Source of the DNA: Tannerella sp.
GTDB lineage: Bacteria > Bacteroidota > Bacteroidia > Bacteroidales > Tannerellaceae
Direction of reading: 5' to 3'
DNA: 10,618 bases
NCBI GenBank assembly: GCA_031272655.1
Contig: JAISTJ010000174.1
Span: forward strand, 1 to 10,618
The notes under the pieces are model-generated. The model made no database searches. It saw only the letters and a list, made by a program, of their open reading frames with translations, and had not been told where the DNA came from. The number at the start of each line of letters is the position of its first letter. Position 1 is the stretch's first letter. Below, piece after piece: positions 3,446-10,618 of the stretch. The translations under genes and the position numbers were made by a program.

Positions 3446-3468
3446 TATATTAAATGCGAAAAAATGCG

Positions 3469-3476
3469 TATCTTTG
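3469..3476 (+). promoter_or_regulatory. Putative -7 box for the DUF2400 gene
   Basis: TATCTTTG matches TAnnTTTG. It lies 25 bp upstream of the ATG at 3502, with an expected leader of about 20 nt. Because it falls downstream of an in-frame ATG at 3454, it argues that 3502 and not 3454 is the true start. No clear -33 TTTG is present. Confidence 0.55.
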
Positions 3477-3501
3477 CATTTTAAAATTAATTTTTTACTT
3501 G

Positions 3502-4242
3502 ATGGATATAAAAGATTTTTTAGATTTTCATGCCGAAAGGATTAATAATAAGGACTTTATAAAAGATGATCCGGTGCAGTTCCCGCGTCGTTACAATCGG
3601 CTTCAGGATATAGAAATCGTGTCGTTTTTAGTTACTACGATTGCGTGGGGAAACCGGAAAATGATACTGCGCAACTCCGAAAAGATGCTTGAAAAGATGG
3701 GAGTCAGCCCGTATGACTATGTGATGAGCGGCGGTTTTGAGTCGCTCGGAACGGCAAATGTGCATCGTACTTTTTTTGAGTATAACATGGCGTATATGCT
3801 GCGTGGATTCAGGCAATTTTATACTGCTTACGACAGCATGGACGCGTTTATGGCTTCATGCACCGATAAATCGCCTCAAACGCTTGTTGCGGCTTTGCGA
3901 CAGGCGGCTTTGGATGCCAACGGCGGAATACCTGATGTCCGTTGCTACTCGTCCGACTTGAAAAATTCCGCCCTTAAACGGGTTAATCTTGCCCTGCGTT
4001 GGCTTGTGCGCGATGATGGTATTGTGGATCTCGGTGTGTGGAAGTCTTTGAAAAAGAGCCAATTATATATTCCTTTAGATGTTCATGTAGGGGATATTGC
4101 CCGTGAAACAGGCCTGCTTACACGCCGCAGTAACGACTGGCGCGCGGTAGAAGAACTAACCGCCCAACTGCGCCGATTCGACCCCGAAGACCCTATAAAA
4201 TACGACTTCGCCCTCTTCGGCATCGGCGTCGAAAGAAAGTAA
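3502..4242 (+). CDS. DUF2400 / TIGR02757 family protein, possible HhH-GPD-like DNA repair enzyme
   Basis: The 246-residue product matches the TIGR02757 family common in Bacteroidota as I remember it: the start MDIKDFLDFH, then IEIVSFLVTTIAWGNRKMILRN (about 38-59), SALKRVNLALRWLVR (156-170), LDVHVGDIARETGLL (192-206) and the end FDPEDPIKYDFALFGIGVERK. No function is established for the family to my knowledge. The C-terminal pattern of a lysine in a KRVN-LRW helix (K159), then LDVHV with D193, then a DP..P..YDFALFG-G ending, resembles helix-hairpin-helix DNA glycosylases of the OGG/AGOG type, so a base-excision role is a plausible inference. The start at 3502 is chosen because the longer reading frame from 3454 would place its N-terminus over the promoter box, and because family members begin MDIK. 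It is apparently monocistronic and divergent from speA. Confidence 0.88.
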   Translation: MDIKDFLDFHAERINNKDFIKDDPVQFPRRYNRLQDIEIVSFLVTTIAWGNRKMILRNSEKMLEKMGVSPYDYVMSGGFESLGTANVHRTFFEYNMAYMLRGFRQFYTAYDSMDAFMASCTDKSPQTLVAALRQAALDANGGIPDVRCYSSDLKNSALKRVNLALRWLVRDDGIVDLGVWKSLKKSQLYIPLDVHVGDIARETGLLTRRSNDWRAVEELTAQLRRFDPEDPIKYDFALFGIGVERK

Positions 4243-4266: not shown

Positions 4267-4397
4267 CGTTACTGTGGAAATACTGTCGTATTTCATTCAT
4301 TGCGATAACAAAAGCCTCTGCAGTCGAACCTCGTCATTGTGAAAATCCTGTCGTATCTCGTCATTACGAGAACGCGGTTCGAAGCAATCTCTGCGTC
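4267..4397 (+). repeat. Two diverged tandem copies of a ~65-bp repeat
   Basis: The segments beginning at 4267 and 4332 align with a period of 65 bp. Over the first 28 positions (4267-4294 against 4332-4359) I count 23 identities, including the shared CTGTCGTAT. Both blocks continue with a CATT-CGA-AAC core and close with CTCTGC followed by AGTC or GTC. The second block is longer in its centre. The cores are related to the translated repeats in leuC. Both copies are degenerate, suggesting an old insertion. Confidence 0.6.
4359..4390 (+). repeat. Degenerate copy of the REP-like palindromic unit found in leuC
   Basis: This 32-bp segment starts CGTCATTACGAG and ends GAAGCAATCT. It matches the ends of the leuC-borne unit (CGTCATTGCGA...GAAGCAATCT) with one substitution in the first arm and a different centre. 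The substitution weakens the ATTGC/GCAAT pairing, so it looks decayed. Confidence 0.7.
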
Positions 4398-4409: not shown

Positions 4410-4862
4410 TTATCCGTTTGTGGCGATTTTGGCGAGGATTTTGCGGATGTCGCCTTCGCCTATTGAAGGAGCGTGCCCCTCGTTTGGAAAGAAGATGGCG
4501 AATTGTCCCGGATAGAGTTTGATGTATGTTGTCGGGTAGTCGTGATAGAACATTATGTCCTTGGAATTGTTGTATGCCTCCGATATAATCATCAGAGAAT
4601 CAGCCGCTTTCCATCCAATGCGCTCTACTCCTACGATGGGCGCGTGAATGTCAATGCACTTTTTATGCGATTCGAGCGTGGCGTCGGCCGGATCCTTGCC
4701 CCTGAAGCGCGAGATCTCGAAATAGAGATGAGTGTCGTCCGTGCGGATTTTCCCGTCCTTTTTGCCGGTGAAATCCGTCTCTTTGATATACTGGAAAGCC
4801 TTCTTGAACAAAGGATGAAGGCTTTCATATTTTCCCGAATTTTCTAACGAATCTATTATCAT
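4410..4862 (-). CDS. YhcH/YjgK/YiaL family protein (DUF386)
   Basis: A 150-residue protein of the YhcH/YjgK/YiaL family, a cupin-like beta-barrel family linked to sugar and sialic-acid catabolism in some bacteria. The biochemical activity is not settled, so no reaction is assigned. Family features visible are the MIIDSLEN opening, ESHKKCIDIHAPIVGVERIGW (64-84, with E64, H66, D71 and H73 as likely metal or substrate ligands), and FFPNEGHAPSI (124-134, with H130), followed by a basic strand RKILAKI. The full length is normal for the family. It lies 41 bp downstream of tldE on the same strand. That gap shows no convincing promoter, so it may be the last gene of the deoC-tldD-tldE transcript. No sialic-acid or other sugar genes accompany it here, so its physiological substrate cannot be inferred from context. 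Confidence 0.9.
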   Translation of the reverse strand: MIIDSLENSGKYESLHPLFKKAFQYIKETDFTGKKDGKIRTDDTHLYFEISRFRGKDPADATLESHKKCIDIHAPIVGVERIGWKAADSLMIISEAYNNSKDIMFYHDYPTTYIKLYPGQFAIFFPNEGHAPSIGEGDIRKILAKIATNG

Positions 4863-8724: not shown

Positions 8725-10203
8725 ATGAGAGATTTTGGATCTAAAACATTATTCGAGAAGATCTGGTCGAAGCACGTGGTATCGACCATTGAGGACGGAC
8801 CGACACAGTTGTACATCGACCGTCTGTACTGCCACGAGGTAACAAGCCCGCAGGCTTTTGCCGGACTGCGAGAGCGCGGACTCAAGCCGCTGCGTCCGGA
8901 GCGTATCTACTGTATGCCCGACCATAACACGCCGACGCATGACCAGGACAAGCCAATAGCCGACCCCGTCTCGCGCCGCCAGGTGGACGCATTGGAGGCT
9001 AACGCACGCGAGTTCGGACTGACATACTTCGGTATGCTTCACCCAAAGAACGGCGTCATACACGTCGTAGGACCGGAGCGCGGACTGACGCTGCCGGGCA
9101 TGACAATCGTCTGCGGCGACAGCCACACCTCGACGCACGGCGCTATGGGGGCTATCGCTTTCGGCATAGGCACCAGCGAGGTAGAGATGGTACTCGCCTC
9201 ACAGTGTATCCTGCAGTCGAAGCCCAAGACGATGCGTATCAGCGTCGAAGGAACGCTCGGCAAGTGCGTAACAGCCAAAGATTTGGCGCTTTATATTATA
9301 GCGAAAATGACTACCGGCGGCGCTACGGGCTATTTCGTGGAGTATGCAGGCTCGGCGGTGCGCTCGCTGACTATGGAAGGGCGACTGACGCTCTGCAACC
9401 TCTCGATAGAGATGGGCGCTCGTGGCGGCATGATAGCGCCGGACGAGACGACCTTCGAGTACCTGCGCGGACGCGAGTACGCCCCGCAAGGCGAGGCATG
9501 GGACAAAGCAGTGGCATACTGGCGGACGCTGCGCACCGACGACGACGCCGTGTTCGACAAGGAAATAACCTTCCGCGCCGAAGACGTTGAGCCGATGATA
9601 ACCTACGGCACCAATCCCGGCATGGGGATGGGGATTACGGAGGCAATACCTTCCCGTCATTGCGAACGCAGTGAAGCAATCTCAACACGTCATTGCGAAC
9701 GCAGTGAAGCAATCTCATCCTCAGCAGATTGCTTCGTTCCTCGCAATGACGCCCCCCACGACGTCAAATCCCTCGAATACATGGGCTTCCACCCCGGCGA
9801 GCGCCTTCTCGGCAAGCCGATAGACTATGTTTTCCTCGGCAGTTGCACTAACGGTCGTATAGAGGACTTCCGCGCCTTTGCGTCCGTAGTGCGCGGCAAG
9901 AAGAAAGCGCCCGGAGTAACGGCATGGTTAGTACCAGGCTCATGGCTCGTGGACAAGCAGATATGCGACGAGGGCTTGGACAAAATACTTGCTGACGCAG
10001 GTTTTGAACTCCGACAGCCCGGTTGCTCGGCTTGTTTAGCGATGAACGACGACAAGGTACCTGCGGGCAAGTACGCAGTAAGCACATCCAATCGCAACTT
10101 CGAGGGACGTCAGGGACCCGGCGCGCGCACCATCCTCGCCAGCCCCCTCACCGCCGCCGCCGCCGCCCTCACCGCCCATATCACCGACCCACGAACACTA
10201 TAA
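8725..10203 (+). CDS. leuC: 3-isopropylmalate dehydratase large subunit with translated palindromic-repeat insertion
   Basis: Large subunit of the [4Fe-4S] isopropylmalate isomerase, which interconverts 2- and 3-isopropylmalate in leucine synthesis. Aconitase-family motifs are intact: [20 protein letters not shown] (24-43), [11 protein letters not shown] (65-75), [11 protein letters not shown] (130-140), [12 protein letters not shown] (about 292-303), and the cluster cysteines in GSCTNGR (C374) and GCSACLAMN (C434, C437). The product is 492 residues, whereas LeuC proteins are usually about 460-470. The excess falls at about residues 311-342, reading [22 protein letters not shown], then [10 protein letters not shown]. 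This is the in-frame translation of three palindromic repeat units, lying between the GMGITEAIP segment and the conserved [21 protein letters not shown]. All motifs on both sides are preserved and no stop is introduced, so the enzyme may still work. leuD follows after 10 bp. By eye the gene is richer in G+C than the DUF2400 and phosphatase genes. Confidence 0.96.
9655..9683 (+). repeat. REP-like palindromic unit 1 inside leuC
   Basis: This 29-bp unit opens CGTCATTGCGAACGC and closes GAAGCAATCTC. It is partly self-complementary (ATTGC at 9659-9663 with GCAAT at 9676-9680). In the leuC frame it begins on a codon boundary at residue 311 and reads [10 protein letters not shown]. Confidence 0.85.
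9688..9716 (+). repeat. REP-like palindromic unit 2 inside leuC
   Basis: It is identical in all 29 bases to unit 1 and starts exactly 33 bp (11 codons) later, so the reading frame and peptide repeat are kept. The 4-bp spacer between units is AACA. Perfect identity suggests recent duplication or gene conversion. Confidence 0.85.
9726..9751 (-). repeat. REP-like palindromic unit 3, inverted, inside leuC
   Basis: Read on the minus strand this unit is CGTCATTGCGAGG followed by AACGAAGCAATCT, the same ends as units 1 and 2 with a different, shorter centre. With unit 2 it can form a hairpin: 9706-9715 pairs with 9726-9735 (10 bp) and 9688-9698 with 9741-9751 (11 bp), around a 10-nt loop and a small internal loop. 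Confidence 0.85.
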
Positions 10204-10213
10204 TTCAAAACAA

Positions 10214-10618
10214 ATGGAAAAATTTACGACAATGACAAGTACTTGTGTTCCACTGCCGATAGAGAATGTGGACACAGACCAGATTATCCCCGCGCGCTTT
10301 CTGAAAGCCACTGACAAAGAGGGCTTTGGAGATAATCTTTTTCGTGACTGGCGCTACGACAAAGACGGCGCCCCAATACCCGGCTTCGTCCTCAACGACC
10401 CGCGTTACGAGGGCGCCCGCGTCCTTGTAGCCGGTAAGAACTTCGGTAGCGGCAGCAGCCGCGAGCACGCGGCATGGGCTATCGCCGGATACGGCTTCAA
10501 AGCCGTTGTGTCGAGTTTCTTTGCCGACATACACCGCAACAACGAACTCAACAACGGCGTCCTGCCGGTGGTCGTCTCCGAGCCGTTCCTGCAGGAACTT
10601 TTTGCAAGCATCGCCGCC
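10214..10618 (+). CDS. leuD: 3-isopropylmalate dehydratase small subunit, N-terminal part (truncated by window edge)
   Basis: Small subunit of isopropylmalate isomerase. It supplies the swivelling domain that completes the active site formed with LeuC and binds the substrate side chain. The visible 135 codons from the ATG at 10214 contain the family's [14 protein letters not shown] (18-31), [23 protein letters not shown] (64-86, with the GSGSSREHA substrate-binding loop) and [18 protein letters not shown] (103-120). The protein is typically about 200 residues, so roughly a third lies beyond the window. It begins 10 bp after the leuC stop, so the two subunits are made from one message and in comparable amounts. 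The reading frame is open to the window edge with no defect, which argues that the pathway is still maintained despite the insertion in leuC. Confidence 0.95.

Follow-up and report, generated by a model that had tools for sequence, protein, structure and literature searches.

Short palindromic repeats that resemble the CGTC-tagged repetitive extragenic palindromes (REPs) of bacteria lie in frame within conserved protein-coding genes of a Tannerella sp. genome. The stretch of DNA analysed here (the window) spans 10,618 nt of contig JAISTJ010000174.1 from assembly GCA_031272655.1, called G000 in the genome comparisons, and includes leuC, the gene for the large subunit of 3-isopropylmalate dehydratase. 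A cluster of three repeat units in leuC is very probably a CGTC-REP insertion that kept the reading frame in a tolerated loop of LeuC, the element having spread in this lineage and left in-frame survivors in at least 14 genes. The assembly comprises 2.18 Mb in 225 contigs and is 72.5% complete; metagenome-assembled Tannerella sp. genomes of this sort are presumably of termite-gut origin.

Repeat units in the leuC reading frame

The leuC gene (8725..10203, plus strand) is an uninterrupted open reading frame (ORF) of 492 codons that runs in the ORF list from an ATG at 8725 to a stop codon at 10203. The product passes both NCBIfam cut-offs (PRK05478, 700.6 versus 510 bits; TIGR00170 leuC, 618 versus 560.25 bits), and score and predicted fold agree in assigning it to the LeuC family. 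Cysteines C374, C434 and C437, which we take to be the ligands of the iron-sulphur (Fe-S) cluster with C374 the first of them, are invariant in an alignment of 40 sequences, the protein itself among them. The small-subunit gene leuD (10214..10618, plus strand), identified by family match, follows directly and is intact up to the end of the window. The original prediction, made from the sequence of the window, had described a translated, in-frame repeat cluster at 9655..9751 within a genuine leuC, with flanking motifs and leuD preserved; the coordinates proved exact, and the single frame, the family scores, the cysteines and leuD all bear out the description.

Two of the units are direct copies of one arm (arm A), identified by sequence and by a genome-wide pattern search. 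The first, CGTCATTGCGAACGCAGTGAAGCAATCTC, occupies 9655..9683 on the plus strand and is read as a 10-residue peptide, and the second, identical in sequence and reading, occupies 9688..9716. Three units had been proposed; three are indeed present, but the last (9725..9751, CGTCATTGCGAGGAACGAAGCAATCTG on the minus strand) is an inverted arm, arm B, that differs slightly from arm A in sequence and reads DCFVPRND on the plus strand, as defined by sequence, locus comparison and RNA folding. Together with the spacers and one leading serine, the units supply 33 codons (9652..9750, plus strand; residues 310-342), delimited by sequence, LeuC alignment and disorder prediction. This segment ends approximately 30 residues ahead of C374, on the side of the first Fe-S cysteine where it had been placed, and residues 312-342 are predicted to be disordered. 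As the cluster preserves the reading frame and contains no internal stop codon, a full-length LeuC is still encoded.

The second direct copy and the inverted arm (9688-9751) are predicted to form an RNA hairpin of -29.2 kcal/mol (z -6.0), a stability equalled by none of 200 shuffled sequences. A hairpin of this strength could tune leuC/leuD expression from within the leuC message, with the peptide as a by-product, and intergenic REPs are considered RNA-level elements in PMC3733652. Such an RNA-level role is nonetheless quite improbable, given that the repeats occur in unrelated genes at unrelated positions, that the window has no Rfam match at gathering scores, and that the insertion is in no other LeuC examined (alignments, 110 loci and an order-wide sample). 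The window likewise has no plasmid match. Its second REP cluster (4294..4392) is decayed and lies between the convergent ORFs 3454-4242 (plus strand) and 4410-4862 (minus strand).

The LeuC linker in relatives

The repeats occupy the linker that joins the TNPG motif to the SLEYMGF helix and whose length was scored as the distance from TNPG to [S/A]LxYMxF. This linker measures 49 residues in the window LeuC and 25 in 79 of 110 LeuC loci, a set in which the window's own locus is counted, at least three contigs occur twice and three loci could not be scored. Linkers of other lengths range from 16 to 30 residues, the outliers being the window gene and that of G020 (53), a member of the same genus. 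The loop is thus variable in length, as had been supposed, and it is not the case that close relatives all carry a non-repeat linker of similar length. In most relatives 15 residues separate the conserved P309 from the SLEYMGF helix; besides the repeat, the window LeuC keeps only six, APHDVK. Since much of the ordinary linker is missing, the net gain is 24 residues, and the original estimate of roughly 30 is too high.

In the order-wide sample, which considered matches at E<=1e-100, a single LeuC match continues uninterrupted through the linker in 62 of 63 genomes, and G000 is the sole exception. A protein-set search with the LeuC insert region (1471 candidates, five matches) found no other LeuC that carries the insert. 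Three longer LeuC matches (P0001, P0002 and P0003; 560-616 residues) were rejected as repeat carriers, as they contain internal duplications of LeuC sequence instead, perhaps through assembly errors. Three metagenome proteins of other families (P0123, P0124 and P0125; Pfam PF13148, PF04235 and PF03706) have the repeat peptide inside a longer protein, as judged by eye.

Enlargement of the same linker has occurred separately in the G020 LeuC (L036, ~1940-2070, G020:C274), where 28 unrelated residues are encoded by G+C-rich palindromic DNA. It gave no sign of being a genomic repeat, as two patterns drawn from it each matched G020 once, at that place. Oddly composed linkers are also present in the Prevotella-type records L120, L129, L133, L140 and L145 (PPPSEGLGEA, PPAPAKGGG, LTSDLLPLTSG) and are perhaps remnants of old repeats.

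In-frame repeats in other genes

A search of the assembly at <=3 mismatches to the leuC unit found 51 copies, and a reversed-pattern control found none. Given this contrast, and a hairpin that outperforms every shuffled sequence, the leuC repeats are not a product of chance. The loci around these copies, together with one (L061) that was added through a transposase search, form 49 distinct clusters. A cluster was considered to lie in a long frame when its open frame extended for >=50 residues before it and >=25 after it, as is true of 23 of the 49. By family scans, 15 of the 49, one of them at L061, are in frame inside recognised proteins, and they fall in 14 genes, which encode LeuC, a StlD/DarB ketosynthase, Ddl, two GH106 proteins (L024 and L027), RimM, a zinc alcohol dehydrogenase, AtpG, MnmL, V-ATPase subunit I, an arabinofuranosidase, a VTC protein, AroC and an ABC-F ATPase with two clusters. 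The parallel with Rickettsia palindromic elements (RPEs) that had been drawn for a Bacteroidota-type genome is thereby extended from one gene to many.

Repeats in RimM, MnmL, L027, the arabinofuranosidase and the second ABC-F position lie between two matched domains and not within one. The family match of the alcohol dehydrogenase ends just before its repeat, and the evidence for that gene is consequently its alignment with an orthologue. Nine proteins (LeuC, AroC, MnmL, Ddl, VTC, AtpG, RimM, StlD and the alcohol dehydrogenase) were aligned with orthologues that lack the extra residues, those for the eight other than LeuC being taken from G009 and/or G035. A further AroC sequence, on a contig of a different length, carries this insert with a single internal R-to-K change, and may not be independent. 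The translated frame differs among genes, giving different peptides, and the inserts vary from 18 to ~70 residues.

The remaining long-frame clusters were left out of the 15 for various reasons. Two (L002 and L063) are in no gene recognisable by eye, two (L017 and L080) are ahead of or at a signal peptide, two (L019 and L025) are in family members with the repeat beyond the best matched stretch, one (L078) is in an ORF without a family, and one (L074) is counted apart and discussed below. Two further clusters, close to where a P5C dehydrogenase match ends (L021) and 37 residues into a DUF3316 ORF (L026), have a left flank too short for the long-frame rule. Among the 26 clusters that have no long frame, 11 had flanking ORFs scanned against Pfam (20 in all), and both sides were covered for nine. 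In none of these nine did the two sides prove to be parts of a single gene, and only L023 and L064 have a family on both sides, with L064 between two Rnf/Nqr subunit genes. This outcome, from a weak and partial check, fits the purging of frame-breaking insertions.

These data bear on three other explanations of the leuC cluster. Repeats are a common cause of misjoins, and in a fragmented, incomplete assembly a repeat could have joined two unrelated pieces or been wrongly expanded. Such an artefact is very unlikely here: both flanks are LeuC sequence in one frame with leuD next, the N- and C-terminal parts are similarly close to the LeuC of G035 (85% and 81%), and the 97 bases would fit within one read. 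Every in-frame repeat in the 13 other genes would likewise need to be an artefact, which speaks against a single assembly error, and the AroC insert is also present on a contig of a different length.

Alternatively, the insertion could be real and leuC could be decaying into a pseudogene whose product has little activity or none, an idea to which the closeness of the loop to C374 and the missing native linker residues lend something. This is unlikely in a gene that has no stop or frameshift, that keeps its three cysteines and flanking motifs, and whose neighbour leuD is intact up to the end of the window. Moreover, atpG, ddl and aroC, which are usually essential, contain repeats of this kind. 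Six matches in the incomplete G000 assembly include no second leuC of comparable score; the two that rank highest are the window leuC and an aconitase-like gene, and the other four rank below them, so that, as far as this assembly extends, there is no sign of an intact second copy that would make the window leuC dispensable.

Finally, the loop could have been domesticated, conferring on LeuC and other enzymes a novel property under selection, for instance a binding surface. The recurrence of the same few peptides in several unrelated proteins, and the independent enlargement of the same linker in G020, would suit this idea. Different frames, different peptides, widely varying lengths and the predicted disorder of the LeuC loop count against it, and domestication has only a slight chance of being correct.

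A gene fusion at the nagK-murQ junction

Where nagK ends in G000, a repeat cluster (L074, 1093-1195, G000:C12) lies in a single 621-codon frame that joins nagK and murQ, and the kinase part of this frame has a weak NCBIfam NagK match. In G009 the two genes are neighbouring ORFs of 285 and 280 codons. The cluster was accordingly rejected as a repeat inside an already fused gene, which reduced the in-gene clusters from 16 to 15. On the basis of these gene arrangements, the repeat can fuse neighbouring genes and not only enlarge loops.

Comparison with congeners

The repeat has a patchy distribution, present in 25 of 100 genomes searched (20 of 41 within the genus and five of 59 outside it). Seven repeat-holding congeners were compared with G000, using the loci of 30 copies each for G016 (of 47) and G022 (of 132) and of six copies each for the other five. 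Under the long-frame rule, 12 of 85 congener clusters qualified (G016, 3/26; G022, 5/28; G007, 0/4; G017, 1/7; G015, 0/5; G012, 3/8; G021, 0/7), compared with 23 of 49 in G000 (Fisher p 7e-5). No Pfam family was found in the 10 congener long-frame ORFs scanned of these 12 (L224 and L234 were outside the scan), and in-protein clusters number 15 of 49 in G000 versus 0 of 85 in the congeners (Fisher p 6e-8). Both tests are generous in treating clusters as independent, and the G000 clusters were sampled by a different pattern, that of the leuC unit, than those of the congeners. One congener ORF (L247) is long, with the repeat near its start, and may be a genuine gene for which Pfam has no family. 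In G016 the unit also recurs at regular intervals, in arrays with a period of 126 or 147 bases (L174, G016:C84; L184, G016:C179).

Two simple causes of this contrast can be set aside. Stop content is not responsible, as clusters average 2.9 open frames in G000, compared with 2.5 in G016 and likewise 2.5 in G022. Nor is copy number, as one common pattern finds 132 copies in G022 and 47 each in G016 and G000. A bolder interpretation is that the lineage represents a second, independent Rickettsia-like case, with translated palindromes throughout the genome in core proteins and even bridging nagK and murQ, in which a lineage-specific factor (selection relaxed by a symbiotic way of life, or an insertion route with a preference for open frames) allows them to persist, whereas sister species whose repeats are equally or more numerous keep their genes free of them. 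This is possible but doubtful.

Relationship to known palindromic elements

In Di Nocera 2013 (PMC3733652), CGTC-tagged REPs are described from five phyla including Bacteroidetes, and in-gene copies in several species encode tens of residues. Such copies are most frequent in R. conorii and are there the same as RPE-4 and RPE-6, and different REPs are reported at about one site in recB, a situation that the window and G020 LeuC genes resemble. The unit shares with these elements a CGTC head and a short palindrome, and probably also the CCA tail in many copies, the inverted dimers and the lack of a dedicated transposase. The head is unaltered or nearly so in all three leuC units and in 47 of 51 genome copies, a count that is partly built in because the search pattern itself begins with CGTC. 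Head-to-head dimers, predominant among CGTC-REPs in that text, have a counterpart in the pairing of arm A with the inverted arm at several G000 loci. CGTC-REPs have an unpaired tail that is mostly CCA; many genome copies of the unit end in GCAATCCAG or GCAATCC, and the two direct leuC copies end in GCAATCTCA (TCTCA, not CCA). Arm A in leuC has a 7-bp stem and a 4-base loop, and two other variants have a 5-bp outer stem, compared with the 8-9 bp and 4-5 base loop given for CGTC-REPs. A further difference is the high in-gene load of G000. On the strength of the head tag, the tail of many copies, the inverted dimers and the failure to find a transposase, the unit is likely a member of the CGTC-tagged REPs, into which its stem length does not fit neatly.

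RPEs (Ogata 2000/2002 and Claverie 2003, as cited in PMC3733652 and PMC10969869) are in frame in many unrelated, apparently functional genes. The present repeats are similar in being translated, in-frame palindromes in unrelated genes of one lineage. In-frame presence in conserved genes together with absence from orthologues, as in RPE-like behaviour, is seen by alignment in nine genes, and family matches place the 15 clusters in 14 genes. The present repeats differ from RPEs in host phylum, and neither common origin nor RPE membership is claimed. The GTAG-REPs associated with RAYT transposases also form short palindromes in dimers, but the unit has no GTAG head and no intact RAYT was found. 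A truncated Y1-transposase-like ORF (L061, 754-1089, G000:C53) lies directly before the alcohol dehydrogenase gene, which has three repeat arms. A literature search by repeat peptide, by 10-base core and for Bacteroidetes or termite cases found nothing new on such repeats among the titles listed, with subscription papers mostly outside its reach.

Probable origin and consequences of the insertions

The sequence of events that best accounts for these observations would begin with the insertion of a CGTC-type palindrome cluster into the length-variable LeuC linker. LeuC would have been left full-length with a probably disordered loop of ~33 residues, and would most likely remain an active isomerase subunit. 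The same element would have spread through the genome of the lineage, insertions that broke genes being purged and in-frame ones surviving in tolerant loops and linkers. The outcome would be the 14 or more genes with translated repeats and one fused pair. The element would be a passenger, and the loop has no known job.

Several observations weigh against this account. Confidence in the LeuC model is modest (mean pLDDT 71.2) and is low also at residues 19-32 and 122-164. The arrival of the repeat may have replaced approximately nine native linker residues, or the repeat may have entered an already short linker. The idea of a unit built to be stop-free was rejected, as four of its six frames are open compared with 3.85 in shuffled sequences. 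In V-ATPase subunit I (AtpI), the repeat site is occupied in relatives by a variable, unrelated stretch of similar length (44-45 residues), so that the repeat there looks more like a replacement within such a stretch than a clean insertion. Lastly, the incomplete genome yielded one truncated Y1-transposase match and no intact transposase, in a search confined to that family.

The kind of element is known, from Rickettsia RPEs and from CGTC-REPs (PMC3733652); the new aspects are the host, how heavily core genes are loaded and the difference from congeners. The observation is sound and belongs to a known class of mechanism, with a new host and an unexpected load. It provides repeat-derived protein segments outside the classical host, in core enzymes and with sister species as built-in controls, and it cautions against treating every repeat-type peptide in databases as an annotation error. 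The contrast between G000 and its congeners also makes an old question testable, namely whether translated palindromes are merely tolerated or are part of protein evolution, including gene fusion.
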